Positions 11,228-17,179 of a DNA stretch of 64,000 nt are shown here, one piece after another (within the stretch, counting starts at the first letter, position 1; every line of letters begins with the position of its first letter). The DNA comes from an uncultured Prevotellaceae bacterium (GTDB lineage Bacteria > Bacteroidota > Bacteroidia > Bacteroidales > Bacteroidaceae). The position numbers and the translations under genes are program-made. The stretch is from contig ONNV01000001.1 in NCBI GenBank assembly GCA_900319225.1, positions 222,663-286,662 of the forward strand, written 5' to 3'. The notes under the pieces are model-generated. The model was given only the letters and a program-made list of their open reading frames with translations, was not told the origin of the DNA and did not search any database.

Positions 11228-11235
11228 TAATTTTG
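11228..11235 (+). promoter_or_regulatory. Candidate -7 element for the nqr operon
   Basis: TAATTTTG, full TAnnTTTG match, 48 bp upstream of the nqrA ATG. The T-rich run at 11188-11200 lies further upstream than a normal -33 element. The rest of the 11036-11283 gap is AT-rich and shows no other feature to me. Confidence 0.5.
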
Positions 11236-11283
11236 CGCCCGAATTTTAGAATACTATTAAATTATATATCAACTAACAACAAA

Positions 11284-12633
11284 ATGGCAGAAATCATTCG
11301 TTTACGAAAAGGTCTGGACATCAAGTTGCTGGGCGCTCCCGTCAAGGAGTTGACAGAGGTTGGTCTTGCGGAGTCATACGCGTTATGCCCCGATGACTTT
11401 ACCGGAGTTACTCCCAAACCGGTCGTCAAGGAACAGCAGACCGTCAAGGCCGGTGAGGCTCTGTTCATTGACAAGAACCACCCTGAGGTGAAATACGTTT
11501 CGCCCGTGAGCGGTGAGGTTGTTGCAGTGAACCGTGGTGCCCGCCGTAAGGTCATGAGCATTGTGGTCAAGCCCGATGCAAAACAGAAGTATGTCGAGTT
11601 CGGAACCAAGAGTGTTCAGTCACTCTCTGGCGAGGAGGTAAAGGCCACTCTCCTGGAGTCTGGTCTTTTCTCATTCTTCCGCCAGCGTCCTTATGACGTT
11701 ATCGCCAACCCGGCCGATGCTCCCCGTGGCATCTTTGTGTCAGCATTTGATTCCAAACCTCTTGCTCCTGATTTTGAGTTCGTTCTCCAGGGCAATGAGC
11801 TGGACTTCCGCACAGGTCTGAGCGCTATCGCCAAGATAGCTCCCACAACCCTGAGCATCAGCGCAGACCAGAAGGCAGAGACTCTTACCGATGCCAAGAA
11901 CGTTGACCTGTATGCATTCAAGGGTGCACATCCCGCAGGTAACGTAGGTGTTCAGATCAACCACATCAAGCCCGTTAACAAGGGTGAGGTTGTATGGACC
12001 ATCGATCCCGAGGCTGTAATTTTCATAGGCCGTCTGTTCAACAAGGGCGTTGTGGATATGACACGCGTAATTGCCGTAGCAGGTGAGGAGATTGTAAATC
12101 CCCAGTACCTCAAGGTTATTGCAGGTGCCAAGATCTCATCAATCGTTGACGGCCGTCTCAACAAGACTGAGCATATCCGTATCATCAACGGTAACGTTCT
12201 TACCGGCGTCAAGTGCACCAAGGATGATTACCTGGGTGCATTCAGCAACATGGTTACCGTTATTCCCGAGGGTGATGACGTGAACGAGTTCATGGGTTGG
12301 ATTGCTCCGCGTTTTGGTCAGTTCAGCGTAAGCCGCTCATTCTTCTCATGGCTGTCATGCAAGAAGCGTTTCAGCATTGATGCCCGTATCAAGGGTGGTG
12401 AGCGTCACATGATCATGTCAAATGAGTATGATAAGGTGTTCCCCATGGATATCTATCCCGAGTTCCTTATCAAGGCAATCATTACCGGCAATATCGACAA
12501 GATGGAGGCTTACGGAATCTATGAGGTAGCCCCTGAGGATTTTGCACTGTGTGAGTTTGTAGATTCATCTAAACTTGAGCTTCAGCGTATTGTACGCGAG
12601 GGCTTGAATAACCTTCGTGCCGAAATGGCCTAA
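11284..12633 (+). CDS. nqrA: Na+-translocating NADH:quinone reductase subunit A
   Basis: 449 residues starting MAEIIRLRKGLDIKLLG, the usual NqrA N-terminus; an in-frame CTG/ATT region upstream is not coding. NqrA is the cytoplasmic-side subunit that binds near the quinone site of the Na+-NQR complex. It contains a barrel-sandwich-like N-terminal part (VKYVSPVSGEVVAVNRGARR) and the conserved GAHPAGNVGVQINHI and GQFSVSRSFFSWL blocks. It is the first gene of nqrABCDEF, all on the same strand with gaps of 5-19 bp. The complex oxidises NADH, reduces quinone and pumps Na+ out, and is the main Na+ pump of many Bacteroidales. Confidence 0.97.
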   Translation: MAEIIRLRKGLDIKLLGAPVKELTEVGLAESYALCPDDFTGVTPKPVVKEQQTVKAGEALFIDKNHPEVKYVSPVSGEVVAVNRGARRKVMSIVVKPDAKQKYVEFGTKSVQSLSGEEVKATLLESGLFSFFRQRPYDVIANPADAPRGIFVSAFDSKPLAPDFEFVLQGNELDFRTGLSAIAKIAPTTLSISADQKAETLTDAKNVDLYAFKGAHPAGNVGVQINHIKPVNKGEVVWTIDPEAVIFIGRLFNKGVVDMTRVIAVAGEEIVNPQYLKVIAGAKISSIVDGRLNKTEHIRIINGNVLTGVKCTKDDYLGAFSNMVTVIPEGDDVNEFMGWIAPRFGQFSVSRSFFSWLSCKKRFSIDARIKGGERHMIMSNEYDKVFPMDIYPEFLIKAIITGNIDKMEAYGIYEVAPEDFALCEFVDSSKLELQRIVREGLNNLRAEMA

Positions 12634-12647
12634 AAACCTGTGGAGTT

Positions 12648-13805
12648 ATGAGTTTAAGAAATTTCATAGACAATATTAAACCGCAATTTGAGGAGGGCGG
12701 CAAACTGCACGCTTTCCGTTCGGTTTTTGAAGGTTTTGAGACCTTCCTTTATGTTCCGAACACAACCGCCAAGAACGGTGTGAACATTCACGACTCATTT
12801 GACAGCAAGCGTATGATGATCATGGTTGTCATCGCTCTCTGCCCGGCTCTGCTGTTCGGTATGTACAATGTAGGCTATCAGCACTACGCTCTGGCTAACA
12901 TTGACGGTTCATTCTGGAATATGTTCTGGTTCGGTTTCCTGGCCGTTCTGCCCAGACTGATTGTTTCATATGTCGTAGGTCTTACAATAGAGTTCATCGT
13001 GGCTCAGTGGAAGCATGAGGAGATTCAGGAGGGATACCTGGTATCAGGTTTCATCATTCCTCTGATCGTTCCCGCCACCACACCGCTGTGGATACTTGCC
13101 CTGGCTGTGGCTTTCTCAGTCATCTTTGCCAAGGAGATATTCGGCGGTACAGGCATGAACTTCTTGAACGTTGCCCTGATTACCCGTGCATTCATATTCT
13201 TTGCATATCCTTCTGTAATCACCGGTGAGACCGTTTGGGTGGTTGACCACGCAATCTGCGGCCTGGGTGCCGACATTGACGGTATGACCGCCGCTACAGC
13301 TCTGGGTACCGCTGCTACTACAACCGCAGCTCCCGCATTCTCAATGGATATGGTATACGGCCTGATCCCCGGATCAGTTGGTGAGACCAGTGTGATTGCC
13401 ATCGCTCTTGGCGCTCTGCTGCTTCTCTATACCGGAATCGCAAGCTGGAAGACAATGCTCTCAGTATTTGTCGGCGGTATCCTGATGGCTCTGGTATACA
13501 ACCAGTGGGGTCCGGACAACGCAATGGCTCAGATGCCCTGGTACGAGCATATCTGCCTGGGCGGTTTCTGCTTCGGTGCCGTATTTATGGCTACTGATCC
13601 TGTTACATCAGCCCGCACAGAGGTTGGTAAGTGGATCTACGGTCTGCTCATAGGTATGATGGCTATCACAATCCGCGTCATGAACCCCGGTTATCCCGAA
13701 GGTATGATGCTGGCCATCCTGCTCATGAACTGCTTCGCTCCGCTTATTGACTACTGCGTAGTACAGCGTAACGTGAACAAACGTCTTAACAGAATAAACA
13801 AATAA
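12648..13805 (+). CDS. nqrB: Na+-NQR subunit B, FMN-carrying membrane subunit
   Basis: 385 residues with about ten transmembrane segments. It carries covalent FMN on a Thr in the family's flavinylation motif; here DGMTAATALG around residues 211-220 fits, with Thr217 the likely attachment site. The conserved block KEIFGGTGMNFLNVALITRA is present. NqrB also holds riboflavin and forms much of the Na+ path. It lies 14 bp downstream of nqrA. No apbE flavin transferase, which would attach the FMN, is present in the window, so it must be elsewhere. Confidence 0.96.
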   Translation: MSLRNFIDNIKPQFEEGGKLHAFRSVFEGFETFLYVPNTTAKNGVNIHDSFDSKRMMIMVVIALCPALLFGMYNVGYQHYALANIDGSFWNMFWFGFLAVLPRLIVSYVVGLTIEFIVAQWKHEEIQEGYLVSGFIIPLIVPATTPLWILALAVAFSVIFAKEIFGGTGMNFLNVALITRAFIFFAYPSVITGETVWVVDHAICGLGADIDGMTAATALGTAATTTAAPAFSMDMVYGLIPGSVGETSVIAIALGALLLLYTGIASWKTMLSVFVGGILMALVYNQWGPDNAMAQMPWYEHICLGGFCFGAVFMATDPVTSARTEVGKWIYGLLIGMMAITIRVMNPGYPEGMMLAILLMNCFAPLIDYCVVQRNVNKRLNRINK

Positions 13806-13810
13806 GGATT

Positions 13811-14644
13811 ATGGCTACGAAAAAATTCAAATGCAAGGTTTGTGGCTATGTCCACGAAGGAGATAAGGCTCCTGAGAAGTGCCCTATGTGTCAGGCACCT
13901 CAGAGTGAGTTCGAGGAGATTGTCGAGGCTGCTCCTGCCAAGAAGGGGCTCAATACCAACAGCAACGTTTATACCATTGTATATTCGGCCGTGATGGTTA
14001 TCATTGTGGCTTTCCTGCTGGTATTCGTATCACAGACACTCAAGGATCGTCAGACTGCAAATGTCATTAACGATACCAAGCAGCAGATACTCTCTGCCCT
14101 GAATCTGCGTGACCTGCCCGATGTGGCCGGTACATACAGTAAGGTTATCAAGGCCGATGCCCTGATGAAGGCAGACGGTTCACTGGCCACTTATAACGGT
14201 GAGTTCAATACATCTTACAAGTCGGAGTCAGATAATGGTAACCTGCATGTCTTTGTTGCAGAGATTGACGGTCAGACCAAATACGTCATACCTATGAACG
14301 GTCTTGGACTGTGGGGTACCATCTGGGGTTACATTGCCCTGAATGATGACCGCAACACCGTTTACGGCGTATATTTCTCACACTCATCCGAGACTCCGGG
14401 TCTGGGTGGAGAGATTGCAGGTCTCAAGTTCCAGAGCAGATTCCCCGGTAAGGAGGTGGTTGACGGAAATAAGGTTGGCCTCAAGGTGGTCAAGTTCGGC
14501 AAGGCCGACAAGGACTCAAAGTTTGAGGTTGACGGTGTGACCGGTGCCACAATCACATCAACAGGTGTGAATGCTATGATTAATAAGGTGCTGTCAGCCT
14601 ACGTTCCGTTCCTGACTGCCGCTAATGTAGAATCTAACGATTGA
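13811..14644 (+). CDS. nqrC: Na+-NQR subunit C with N-terminal rubredoxin-like domain
   Basis: 277 residues. Residues 1-35 are a rubredoxin-like iron/zinc ribbon: FKCKVCGYVHEG (Cys8, Cys11) and PEKCPMCQAPQSEF (Cys24, Cys27), closest in form to the C-terminal domain of rubrerythrin. A short Ala/Glu/Lys linker leads to the normal NqrC start (NTNSNVYTIVYSAVMVII), one transmembrane helix (~53-73), and the periplasmic FMN-binding domain with GLGLWGTIWGY and the flavinylation motif DGVTGATITS (Thr247). The start follows nqrB by 5 bp with an AAGGATT leader, and no alternative Met lies between the ribbon and the helix. The ribbon would face the cytoplasm. The fusion is seen directly; an electron-transfer or structural role for the ribbon is inference. 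Confidence 0.95.
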   Translation: MATKKFKCKVCGYVHEGDKAPEKCPMCQAPQSEFEEIVEAAPAKKGLNTNSNVYTIVYSAVMVIIVAFLLVFVSQTLKDRQTANVINDTKQQILSALNLRDLPDVAGTYSKVIKADALMKADGSLATYNGEFNTSYKSESDNGNLHVFVAEIDGQTKYVIPMNGLGLWGTIWGYIALNDDRNTVYGVYFSHSSETPGLGGEIAGLKFQSRFPGKEVVDGNKVGLKVVKFGKADKDSKFEVDGVTGATITSTGVNAMINKVLSAYVPFLTAANVESND

Positions 14645-14651
14645 TAGGATT

Positions 14652-15272
14652 ATGGCAAACAAGAACAGTGAGGCTTTTAAACAGCCGTTGTGGGTCAACA
14701 ACCCTGTGCTGGTTCAGATTCTGGGTATCTGTTCGGCTCTGGCCGTAACGGCTCAGCTCAAACCCGCCATCGTGATGGGTCTTTCAGTTACCATCATCGT
14801 GGCTATGTCAAACGTGATTATCTCACTCCTGCGTAATACAATCCCCAACCGTATCCGCATCATCATCCAGCTTGTGGTTGTGGCCGCTCTGGTTACTGTA
14901 GTAAGCGAGATACTTAAGGCTTTTGCATACGATGTGAGCGTTCAGCTTTCCGTATATATCGGACTTATCATTACCAACTGTATCCTTATGGGTCGTCTGG
15001 AGGCTTTTGCCATGCAGAACGGTCCTTGGGCATCGTTCCTGGACGGTATAGGTAACGGTCTGGGTTATGCGGCAATACTGGTAGTGGTTGCATTTGTACG
15101 TGAACTCTTTGGTAGCGGAACCCTGTTCGGTTTCCAGATTATACCGCAGGCCTGCTATGAGGCCGGTTACCTGAACAACGGTCTTATGATTATGCCGCCT
15201 ATGGCTCTTATCCTGACCGGCTGTATCATATGGTATCATCGCGCCAAGAACAAGGATTTACAGGAAAACTAA
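14652..15272 (+). CDS. nqrD: Na+-NQR subunit D
   Basis: 206 residues, six transmembrane helices, no soluble domain. Cys27 (LGICSALAVTAQLK) and Cys110 (IITNCILMGR) are the two conserved cysteines that, with two from NqrE, hold the intramembrane iron-sulfur cluster between NqrF and NqrC. It is homologous to NqrE and to RnfA/E. Seven bp separate it from nqrC, with a GGATT-ATG start context also seen before nqrC. Confidence 0.97.
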   Translation: MANKNSEAFKQPLWVNNPVLVQILGICSALAVTAQLKPAIVMGLSVTIIVAMSNVIISLLRNTIPNRIRIIIQLVVVAALVTVVSEILKAFAYDVSVQLSVYIGLIITNCILMGRLEAFAMQNGPWASFLDGIGNGLGYAAILVVVAFVRELFGSGTLFGFQIIPQACYEAGYLNNGLMIMPPMALILTGCIIWYHRAKNKDLQEN

Positions 15273-15291
15273 TCTCAAAGCGTAAAGAACT

Positions 15292-15900
15292 ATGGAACAT
15301 TTCTTCAGTTTACTTGTCAGGTCGATATTCGTCGACAACATGATATTTGCGTTCTTCCTGGGTATGTGCTCATTCCTGGCTGTCAGCAAGAACGTAAAGA
15401 CAGCTTTGGGACTTGGTGTAGCTGTCATCTTTGTGGAGCTCATTACACTTCCCGTAAACTATCTGCTCCAGACCAAGGTGCTTGAGCCTATGGGCCTGGA
15501 ATTCCTGAGTTTCATCCTTTTCATCGCAGTTATTGCCGGTATTGTCCAGCTGGTTGAGATGGTGGTTGAGAAATTCTCTCCCTCCCTCTACAACTCTCTG
15601 GGTATATTCCTGCCGCTTATTGCCGTGAACTGCGCCATCATGGGTGCATCACTGTTCATGCAGCAGCGTATCGGTATGGATCCGGACAACACACAGGCCA
15701 TCACATCATTCGGTGACTCAATCGCTTATGCACTGGGTTCCGGTATCGGTTGGGCTCTGGCTATTGTCTGCCTGGCTGCCATCCGCGAGAAGATGGAATA
15801 CTGCGATGTCCCCAAACCCCTGAAGGGAGTTGGTATAACTTTCATTACCGTAGGTCTGATGGCCATGGCTTTCATGTGTTTCTCAGGTCTGGCAATTTAA
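15292..15900 (+). CDS. nqrE: Na+-NQR subunit E
   Basis: 202 residues, six transmembrane helices, paired in inverted topology with NqrD. Cys26 ([14 protein letters not shown]) and Cys114 ([12 protein letters not shown]) are the expected ligands of the shared intramembrane iron-sulfur centre. The C-terminal [15 protein letters not shown] loop is typical of the subunit. Nineteen bp after nqrD. Confidence 0.97.
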
Positions 15901-15913
15901 AAAAGGTAATATT

Positions 15914-17179
15914 ATGAATCTGTATTTATCAAGCATTATAGTTTTTCTGGCCGTTATCCTGCTGCTGGTGGTAATCCTGCTGGTGGCCAAGAGCTACCTG
16001 GTTGCCTCTGGCAAGGTTAAGGTAACAATCAACGGCGACAAGGAACTTGAGGTGAATTCAGGCGCAAGCCTCTTGAGCACCCTTGCTGAGAACGGTGTTT
16101 ATCTGCCCTCAGCCTGCGGTGGTAAGGGTTCTTGCGGACAGTGCAAATGCCAGGTCGTTGAGGGCGGCGGTGAGATTCTGGACTCTGAGAAGGGTCATTT
16201 CACCCGCAAGCAGATCAAGGACAACTGGCGTCTGGGTTGCCAGTGCAAGGTCAAGGGTGACCTCTCCATCAAGGTTCCTGAGAGCGTTCTGGGTGTAAAA
16301 GAGTGGGAGTGCGAGGTTATCTCCAACAAGAACGTGGCTACCTTTATCAAGGAGTTCATCGTTCAGCTTCCTCCAGGAGAGCACATGGATTTCCTTCCCG
16401 GAAGTTACGCTCAGATCAAGATTCCCGCATACTCTATGGATTATGACAAGGATATCGATAAGGACCTTATCGGTCCCGAGTATCTGCCTGCATGGGAGAA
16501 GTTCGGTCTATTTGGCCTTAAATCGGTCGTAAAGGAGCCTACCATCCGTGCTTACTCTATGGCCAACTATCCTGCCGAGGGTGACCGCATCATGCTGACA
16601 GTACGTATCGCTACACCTCCTTTCAAGCCGAAACCGGAGGTTGGTTTCCAGGATGTTCCCACCGGTGTGGCTTCATCTTATATCTTCAGCCTCAAGCCCG
16701 GTGACAAGGTTATCATGTCAGGTCCTTACGGTGAGTTCCATCCTATCTTTGACTCAAAGAAGGAGATGATCTGGGTTGGCGGTGGTGCCGGTATGGCTCC
16801 TCTGCGTGCACAGATCATGCATATGACCAAGACTCTTAAGACCACAGACCGTGAGATGCATTATTTCTACGGCGCACGTGCCCTTAATGAGGTATTCTAT
16901 CTGCAGGACTTCCTCCAGATAGAGAAGGAGTTCCCCAACTTCCACTTCCATCTGGCTCTGGACCGTCCGGATCCCGCAGCCGATGCAGCAGGCGTGAAGT
17001 ACACTCCGGGTTTTGTGCATAACGTAATGTACGAGACCTATCTTAAGGACCATGAGGCTCCTGAGGATATCGAGTACTACATGTGCGGACCTGGCCCCAT
17101 GTCAAAGGCCGTTACCGGTATGCTGGACAGCCTGGGCGTTGATCCCGCATCAATCATGTACGATAACTTTGGCGGATAA
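15914..17179 (+). CDS. nqrF: Na+-NQR subunit F, NADH dehydrogenase subunit
   Basis: 421 residues: an N-terminal membrane anchor (~5-27), a plant-type 2Fe-2S ferredoxin domain with Cys68, Cys74, Cys77 and Cys109 (ACGGKGSCGQCKC, then LGCQC), and an FNR-like FAD/NADH domain (RAYSMANYP for FAD; WVGGGAGMAPLRAQI and MCGPGPM for NADH). It is the electron entry point: NADH to FAD to 2Fe-2S, then to the NqrD/E centre. It ends the operon and is followed by two terminators. Length and motifs are normal. Confidence 0.97.
   Translation: MNLYLSSIIVFLAVILLLVVILLVAKSYLVASGKVKVTINGDKELEVNSGASLLSTLAENGVYLPSACGGKGSCGQCKCQVVEGGGEILDSEKGHFTRKQIKDNWRLGCQCKVKGDLSIKVPESVLGVKEWECEVISNKNVATFIKEFIVQLPPGEHMDFLPGSYAQIKIPAYSMDYDKDIDKDLIGPEYLPAWEKFGLFGLKSVVKEPTIRAYSMANYPAEGDRIMLTVRIATPPFKPKPEVGFQDVPTGVASSYIFSLKPGDKVIMSGPYGEFHPIFDSKKEMIWVGGGAGMAPLRAQIMHMTKTLKTTDREMHYFYGARALNEVFYLQDFLQIEKEFPNFHFHLALDRPDPAADAAGVKYTPGFVHNVMYETYLKDHEAPEDIEYYMCGPGPMSKAVTGMLDSLGVDPASIMYDNFGG

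Follow-up and report, generated by a model that had tools for sequence, protein, structure and literature searches.

The nqr operon and the N-terminal domain of NqrC

The window, the whole 64,000-nucleotide stretch of DNA analysed here, contains a complete nqrABCDEF operon on the forward strand (11233-17179), and each subunit scored above at least one equivalog cut-off in a profile search of the window. The nqrA gene (11233..12633) matched NF003761 with 644.6 bits from residue 18 on and TIGR01936 above cut-off; its reading frame as listed begins with TTG, and translation probably starts 17 codons further on, with the ATG at 11284. It is followed on the same strand by nqrB (12648..13805; NF003756 and TIGR01937 above cut-off), nqrC (13811..14644), nqrD (14652..15272; TIGR01939 above cut-off), nqrE (15292..15900; TIGR01940 above cut-off) and nqrF (15914..17179; TIGR01941 above cut-off), the last belonging to a 421-aa type that has additional residues near 183-186 and 361-363. 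The six subunits, the FMN-threonine motif and the single NqrC helix are shared with the Na+-NQR of V. cholerae (7xk3, 8a1t) and Prevotella bryantii, but the 277-aa NqrC of the window carries an N-terminal Cys4 rubredoxin-like domain that is absent from the V. cholerae NqrC structures, in line with an earlier note on this DNA, which had held that standard NQR has no such domain.

The domain occupies residues 1-38 (13811..13924), of which residues 1-36 read MATKKFKCKVCGYVHEGDKAPEKCPMCQAPQSEFEE, and was assigned to the reverse-rubrerythrin type from PF21349, the structural model and Foldseek. Its four-cysteine ribbon, Cys8-x2-Cys11 and Cys24-x2-Cys27 (codons 13832-13834, 13841-13843, 13880-13882 and 13889-13891), opens NqrC exactly as the earlier note had claimed, and PF21349 (RUBY_RBDX) matched in full length at residues 6-35 (E 4.9e-15, 55.1 bits, cut-off 26.5). 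No PF02915 match was found in the window NqrC, which is therefore not itself a reverse rubrerythrin (revRbr), a protein defined by a rubredoxin-like (Rd) domain followed by a diiron four-helix domain. The remainder is a normal NqrC, also as claimed, scoring 190.8 bits against TIGR01938 (cut-off 144). A flexible linker containing a Lys-Lys pair (residues 39-50, 13925..13960), delimited by pLDDT and by an alignment of 24 sequences in which its length differs among relatives, leads into a single transmembrane helix at about residues 52-78 (13964..14044; hydrophobic stretch by eye, model helix 52-96) and an FMN_bind domain at residues 166-261 (14306..14593; PF04205, E 2.2e-19; structure match 3lwx). 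Within the latter, the TGAT motif (residues 244-247, 14540..14551) contains Thr247, the FMN site predicted from the alignment; G245 and T247 were invariant in 24 fused NqrC sequences, and the threonine of this motif is what we take to be the covalent FMN attachment site in NqrC.

The start of nqrC appears sound, because its ATG sits 5 bases past the nqrB stop and the next Met codons, M26 and M62, fall within the ribbon and the membrane helix, respectively. A protein starting past residue 35, an eventuality raised earlier, was rejected, as the codons separating the ribbon from the membrane helix include no ATG, GTG or TTG.

An AlphaFold2 model built on an alignment of 24 fused homologues had a mean pLDDT of 86.8; the blocks covering residues 1-40 averaged 80-92 and residues 40-48 fell below 50, so that residues 1-38 are predicted to form a separately folded domain. 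In Foldseek, this head matched the rubredoxin domains of the rubrerythrins 1ryt (0.6 Å) and 9fj2 (0.5 Å) and of a Methanosarcina disulfide reductase (4tpu, 0.7 Å) over 34-36 columns each, and the rubrerythrin 1b71 at 1.7 Å over 37 columns, with E values of 0.01-0.1 for these matches. The core matched NqrC structures, with a TM-score of 0.87 by target length for 3lwx, and RnfG of the Rnf complex (7zc6, 8rb9; matched chains of 187-197 residues) is a structural homologue of the core. We rejected 3lwx, from P. distasonis, as proof of a fused protein in the type strain, since the two headed Parabacteroides NqrC proteins are close to it but non-identical.

For column and codon counts, 146 fused loci were reduced to 114 distinct DNA sequences by a motif filter that missed the fused loci L028, L029, L164 and L172 and the unfused L147 and L203. 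All four cysteines, whose conservation in relatives the earlier note had made a point to check, were present in 114/114 distinct fused genes, a count that is in part true by the search pattern, and the CxxC-x12-CxxC spacing was exactly 12 in every one of them where 8-18 was permitted. None of 53 unfused operons had a CxxC in the 70 residues ahead of the core, and therefore no decayed half-domain was seen. Divergent ribbons that keep all four cysteines occur in L116, L117, L152 and L209 (genus g353) and in L123 and L124 (genus g363), where Gln or Lys replaces the Tyr after CxxCG and Phe-Glu-Ala replaces His-Glu-Gly.

Kinship, distribution and evolution of the domain

The window's genome encodes a revRbr of its own (L002 1063-1617, 184 aa), in which an N-terminal PF21349 domain of the same subtype is joined to a diiron PF02915 domain rather than to a membrane subunit. 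The NqrC domain is 63% identical to it over 38 residues, among the best other matches in the genome, compared with 46% for a second match, a C-terminal domain in a protein of classical rubrerythrin layout. Across distinct sequences, NqrC-Rd and revRbr-Rd had a mean identity of 0.60 and a maximum of 0.83 (83 x 15 sequences), and NqrC-Rd and C-terminal rubrerythrin Rd a mean of 0.44 (83 x 3 sequences). By sequence comparison, the closest kin of the NqrC head is thus the N-terminal domain of revRbr, so that the rubrerythrin-type domain proposed in the earlier note stood, with the refinement that the relationship is not to the C-terminal domain of classical rubrerythrin. The two differ in charge, with positions 7 and 9 mostly basic in NqrC-Rd and Ile/Thr in revRbr, and positions 33 and 35 mostly acidic in NqrC-Rd and basic or Asn in revRbr, differences that may mark a different docking face. 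Among the matches listed for family f42, rubredoxin-like stretches in frames of 40-67 residues lie about 200 bases or less from a revRbr gene in three genomes (L223, G977:C94:4429-4515; G994:C59:172738-172827; G077:C7:72322-72408).

The survey of homologues on a tree that the earlier note had called for showed that the domain recurs across four Bacteroidales families, in which the fused and unfused states have interchanged many times. In the window's genus, 30/37 genomes were fused, two had an unfused nqrC (G015, G018) and no nqrC was found in five, which are 62-90% complete. A scan with short peptide patterns, one genome per species, recovered 77 loci, 75 of them fused, a proportion that favours fused loci through one pattern within the domain and a bias towards MATKKFKC. 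These fused loci came from rumen, horse and poultry metagenome-assembled genomes (MAGs), including Candidatus Colenecus caballi and Candidatus Avibacteroides, and also from Paraprevotella clara, P. xylaniphila, Parabacteroides (e.g. P. bouchesdurhonensis) and Alistipes. Searches with a profile of fused proteins, where a match starting at profile position 1-5 was scored as fused, gave at least 67 fused among 220 genomes with nqrC in the Bacteroidaceae-level family f1 (251 searched), 10/17 in f19 (20 searched), 17/54 in f42 (81 searched, two with a split alignment counted) and 18/69 in f105 (78 searched). An even draw over the order yielded at least seven fused genomes among the matches listed, 319 of the 393 genomes searched having nqrC. 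In an even draw over the phylum (296 searched), the window's genome was the sole fused one of 54 with nqrC, 9 of the 54 matches beginning at position 66 or later with their N-termini not judged. As far as seen, the fusion belongs to Bacteroidales and is distributed there as a mosaic; other phyla were covered by the exact patterns alone. One MAG labelled Clostridium sp. contains a Bacteroidales-type fused nqrC (L065) and is possibly mislabelled or a mixed bin.

A tree of the five other subunits was drawn for 99 operons (46 fused, 53 unfused); like the tree without NqrF, it is a quick one supported by SH-aLRT alone. On it the fusion state changed at least 18 times, 17 of the changes being forced by starred branches; without NqrF there were 20 changes, again with 17 forced. 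The genome G965 has two nqrC loci (L155, L156), of which one is fused and the other is unfused and strongly divergent, and its second, long-branch operon (L156) was omitted from the tree without NqrF and from the tree used for the revRbr contrasts below. A single clade of fused NqrC cores was rejected (p-AU 0.0003), and a single clade of NqrC-Rd was compatible with the data over 30 columns (p-AU 0.79); a free tree of the Rd domains, weak with its 30 columns, needs five changes. The NqrC domains had a mean identity of 0.69 among themselves (0.33-0.97) versus 0.60 to revRbr, and for the window's domain the identity was 0.71-0.94 to the NqrC domains of six other groups versus 0.63 to the revRbr of its own genome. 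Repeated fusions from local rubrerythrins are disfavoured by this mutual identity and by the one-clade test.

Across seven groups compared, Rd identity was 0.68-0.95 versus 0.39-0.59 for the NqrC core, while synonymous differences were at or near saturation in both (pS 0.58-1.18 for Rd, 0.69-0.86 for the core), and within the window's genus dN/dS was 0.16 for Rd and core alike (28 sequences, 378 pairs). Given the saturated synonymous differences, the likeness of the Rd domains is old and held by selection, and recent transfer is unlikely as its source; the domain is old, under purifying selection and more conserved than the NqrC core.

Unfused relatives retain a complete nqr operon without the domain, and 43/53 unfused NqrC proteins begin directly at the core. 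In the unfused L027, by contrast, a scar of loss is visible, with the window's upstream bases and ATG GCT ACG AAA AAA followed directly by the core. The mosaic is some mix of loss and exchange, and some losses leave such a scar. In both L027 and L054 the rubredoxin codons were cleanly lost in frame with the upstream bases and first five codons retained, and the unfused L203, L148 and L150 have similar starts (MATNK, MANK and MAKS).

Genes that accompany the fusion

Partner genes were compared in 80 of the 99 genomes first named. At a threshold of 1e-30 (weakest accepted match 5.8e-56; the fused G1028 and G749 scored on partial matches), revRbr was present in 41/41 fused versus 22/39 unfused genomes (Fisher 5e-7), and in 30/30 versus 17/28 of the genomes at least 90% complete (p 9e-5). 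In contrasts on the operon tree, fusion and revRbr agreed in 5-8 cases and disagreed in none, with p from 0.008 to 0.06 and a median of about 0.03, a phylogeny-corrected value that would fail strict correction, revRbr being one of about six traits tried post hoc (NqrM, rubredoxin, number of Rd domains, NqrF type, revRbr and other Rd proteins). Adding 29 fused genomes of the window's genus brought the count to 67/70 fused versus 22/39 unfused, with revRbr in the added genomes scored more loosely, from genus-wide Rd matches (G024 on a 58-residue frame). The three fused genomes of the genus with no revRbr match (G001, G027 and G031; 97, 96 and 90% complete) indicate that the fusion does not depend on revRbr in every case; in the stretches examined from them, the rubrerythrins were of the classical type only, and a revRbr in an assembly gap is possible. 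In G001, a rubrerythrin-like gene (L244 3723-4871) has a rubredoxin-like stretch just downstream on the same strand. Both unfused genomes of the genus, G015 and G018 (86 and 81% complete), had no revRbr match.

Comparable traits gave no such signal. Standalone rubredoxin, considered as a partner or substitute, was not associated with the fusion (24/41 fused versus 25/39 unfused, p 0.65; contrasts averaging 2.9 to 3.1) and was set aside, as was the presence of two or more other Rd domains per genome, where the trend was weak and non-significant (contrasts averaging 4.5 to 2.0, median p 0.69). Proteins with an Rd domain other than NqrC and revRbr occurred in 39/41 fused and 37/39 unfused genomes (p 1.0). 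Replacement of NqrM, a known iron-loading factor, was dropped as well, since PF04400 matched 0/80 genomes and also 0/14 controls, from which nothing follows.

NqrF falls into two sharply separated types, which differ by small inserts and 14 diagnostic columns and are divided by one change on the NqrF tree with 100% support. All 46 fused operons had the 421-aa type, compared with 30/50 unfused operons, the other 20 having the other type. When mapped on the tree built without NqrF, the type switches 8 times, as if nqrF had been exchanged on its own, as a cassette. Over 7 NqrF-type switches, NqrF type and fusion agreed in 2-6 contrasts and disagreed in none (median p 0.125). The revRbr gene was itself missing in 10/12 genomes with the 'low' NqrF type versus 5/66 with the 'high' (421-aa) one; within the 421-aa type, where its link with fusion was weaker, it was missing in 5/25 unfused and 0/41 fused genomes (Fisher 0.006), with contrasts of 3-5 to 0 (p 0.06-0.25). 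Because fusion, NqrF type and revRbr are nested, their separate contributions are inseparable in the 80-genome sample, and a shared lifestyle could be the source of the link between fusion and revRbr.

A candidate electron outlet and its alternatives

NQR is described as a central NADH-oxidising sodium pump of rumen Prevotella (PMC10739449). The window encodes an ordinary NQR with an added, probably redox-active module, the distribution of which points to peroxide or oxygen defence. NqrC topology places the ribbon on the cytoplasmic side, as the earlier note had reasoned. Its further claim of proximity to NqrF agrees with the V. cholerae enzyme, in which the NqrC helix is in contact with NqrF TMH1 and NqrD TMH3 (PMC9325719). 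There, the [2Fe-2S] domain of NqrF extends to NqrD/E from the cytoplasm as the helices of NqrC and NqrF tilt (PMC10643135). With these helix contacts and this reach of NqrF, the ribbon would adjoin the mobile NqrF ferredoxin domain.

Taking these observations together, the best reading, which we put forward tentatively, is that the domain serves as a tethered electron outlet from NQR to peroxide and oxygen reductases of the rubrerythrin type. NqrC residues 1-38 would form an Fe(Cys)4 rubredoxin domain descended from its N-terminal counterpart in revRbr, with the fold predicted from the model and the iron, the donor, the acceptor and the direction of flow all putative. The flexible tether would hold the ribbon where the NqrC helix ends in the cytoplasm, close to the NqrF helix and to the site at which the NqrF [2Fe-2S] domain passes electrons to the NqrD/E cluster. 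From there it could take single electrons from reduced NqrF and hand them to cytoplasmic H2O2/O2 reductases, mainly revRbr, and classical rubrerythrin where revRbr is missing. The path would run from NADH through the FAD and [2Fe-2S] of NqrF to the NqrC ribbon and on to revRbr or rubrerythrin and H2O2/O2, the steps past NqrF being those that we infer, and NQR would double as a membrane-bound NADH:rubrerythrin reductase with its outlet at the respiratory entry point.

The energetics, judged by analogy, would permit this direction. NADH lies at about -320 mV and the NqrF [2Fe-2S] cluster at about -270 mV. The Rd centres of C. difficile revRbr titrate at +10 and -10 mV, and those of canonical rubrerythrins are quoted at +185 mV and above (PMC7482061); since these lie above both carriers, transfer from NqrF through Rd to peroxide is expected to be downhill. 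The same source gives the physiological donors of the C. difficile revRbrs as unknown, the reduction of H2O2 and O2 with NADH having been obtained through an artificial rubredoxin/reductase pair (PMC7482061). The outlet scheme fits the links with revRbr and with NqrF, as well as the fact that operons complete in other respects have lost the domain; under it, another donor is needed in the 22 unfused genomes that have revRbr. A broader form, in which nqrC-Rd, one NqrF type and revRbr make up a detachable module, with the head lost, gained or exchanged at least 17 times and NQR supplying the rubrerythrins, is a possibility that we regard as doubtful. The earlier note had suggested that the ribbon brings in electrons from a partner such as a rubrerythrin or a ferredoxin; a rubrerythrin partner survives as the best-supported guess, while the inward direction is less likely on the expected potentials.

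Such an electron inlet, in which a soluble ferredoxin, rubredoxin or rubrerythrin reduces the ribbon and feeds NQR instead of NADH, seems to us very unlikely. A centre expected at about 0 mV or higher, by analogy, looks too positive for the carriers that follow, and the fusion has no link with standalone rubredoxin, although the cytoplasmic place adjoining the electron entry point, drawn from the V. cholerae contacts (PMC9325719), would suit it. The same position beside NqrF TMH1 and NqrD TMH3 (PMC9325719) would also suit an internal relay, in which the Rd iron is an extra stop or buffer that shortens the hop between NqrF and the NqrD/E [2Fe-2S] cluster, and the exclusive pairing with one NqrF type (46/46; contrasts 2-6 to 0) is consistent with this. 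Nevertheless, a centre near 0 mV, if like that of revRbr, would be expected to trap electrons before carriers of lower potential, and neither the link to revRbr nor the domain's loss in close relatives follows from a relay, which makes it rather improbable.

A redox, oxygen or metal sensor, whose oxidation or metal loss would shift the NqrC helix and throttle the pump under oxidative stress, would be consistent with the association with a peroxide-defence gene, revRbr. This role is weakened by the conserved CxxCGY and CPxC stretches, which are typical of electron-transfer rubredoxin domains, and by the linker, whose residues 40-48 had no confident predicted structure in the model and might therefore transmit force poorly. 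An end-mounted head could still gate a helix that tilts and shifts in the cycle, as one study indicates (PMC10643135), and we give the sensor a low probability. We hold in similarly low regard a structural or assembly role, with a Zn or Fe ribbon that steadies NqrC/NqrF or aids loading of the NqrD/E cluster. A small, folded, flexibly tethered head would fit such a role, and NqrM was found in none of the 80 genomes, but that search is uninformative given its failure in all 14 controls; moreover, unfused relatives keep the full operon without the domain, and the revRbr link is left unexplained.

If the electron outlet is real, a respiratory pump would double as a membrane safety valve for oxygen and peroxide, and even under another function some gut Bacteroidales NQR may have a metal centre that is missing in the V. 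cholerae structures. Close relatives with and without the head provide a ready natural comparison. The NqrC-Rd architecture is presumably already shown in protein-domain databases. Among openly licensed PMC papers, none was found to describe the fusion; a single one mentions NqrC or Na+-NQR together with rubredoxin or rubrerythrin, the terms being unrelated in it, and the word rubredoxin is absent from the Prevotella bryantii NQR modelling paper. Related couplings are known. The [FeFe] hydrogenase-rubrerythrin chimera CperHydR likewise couples a primary electron source to peroxide reduction, but it fuses a whole rubrerythrin (PMC11926857), whereas NqrC would carry only the Rd head with the peroxidase separate, if the outlet reading is right. 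In FdpF, a short rubredoxin domain likewise links an NADH dehydrogenase to an O2/H2O2 reductase, but all within one polypeptide, in which the rubredoxin and NADH reductase domains are fused to a flavodiiron protein and which is not part of an ion pump (PMC7482061).
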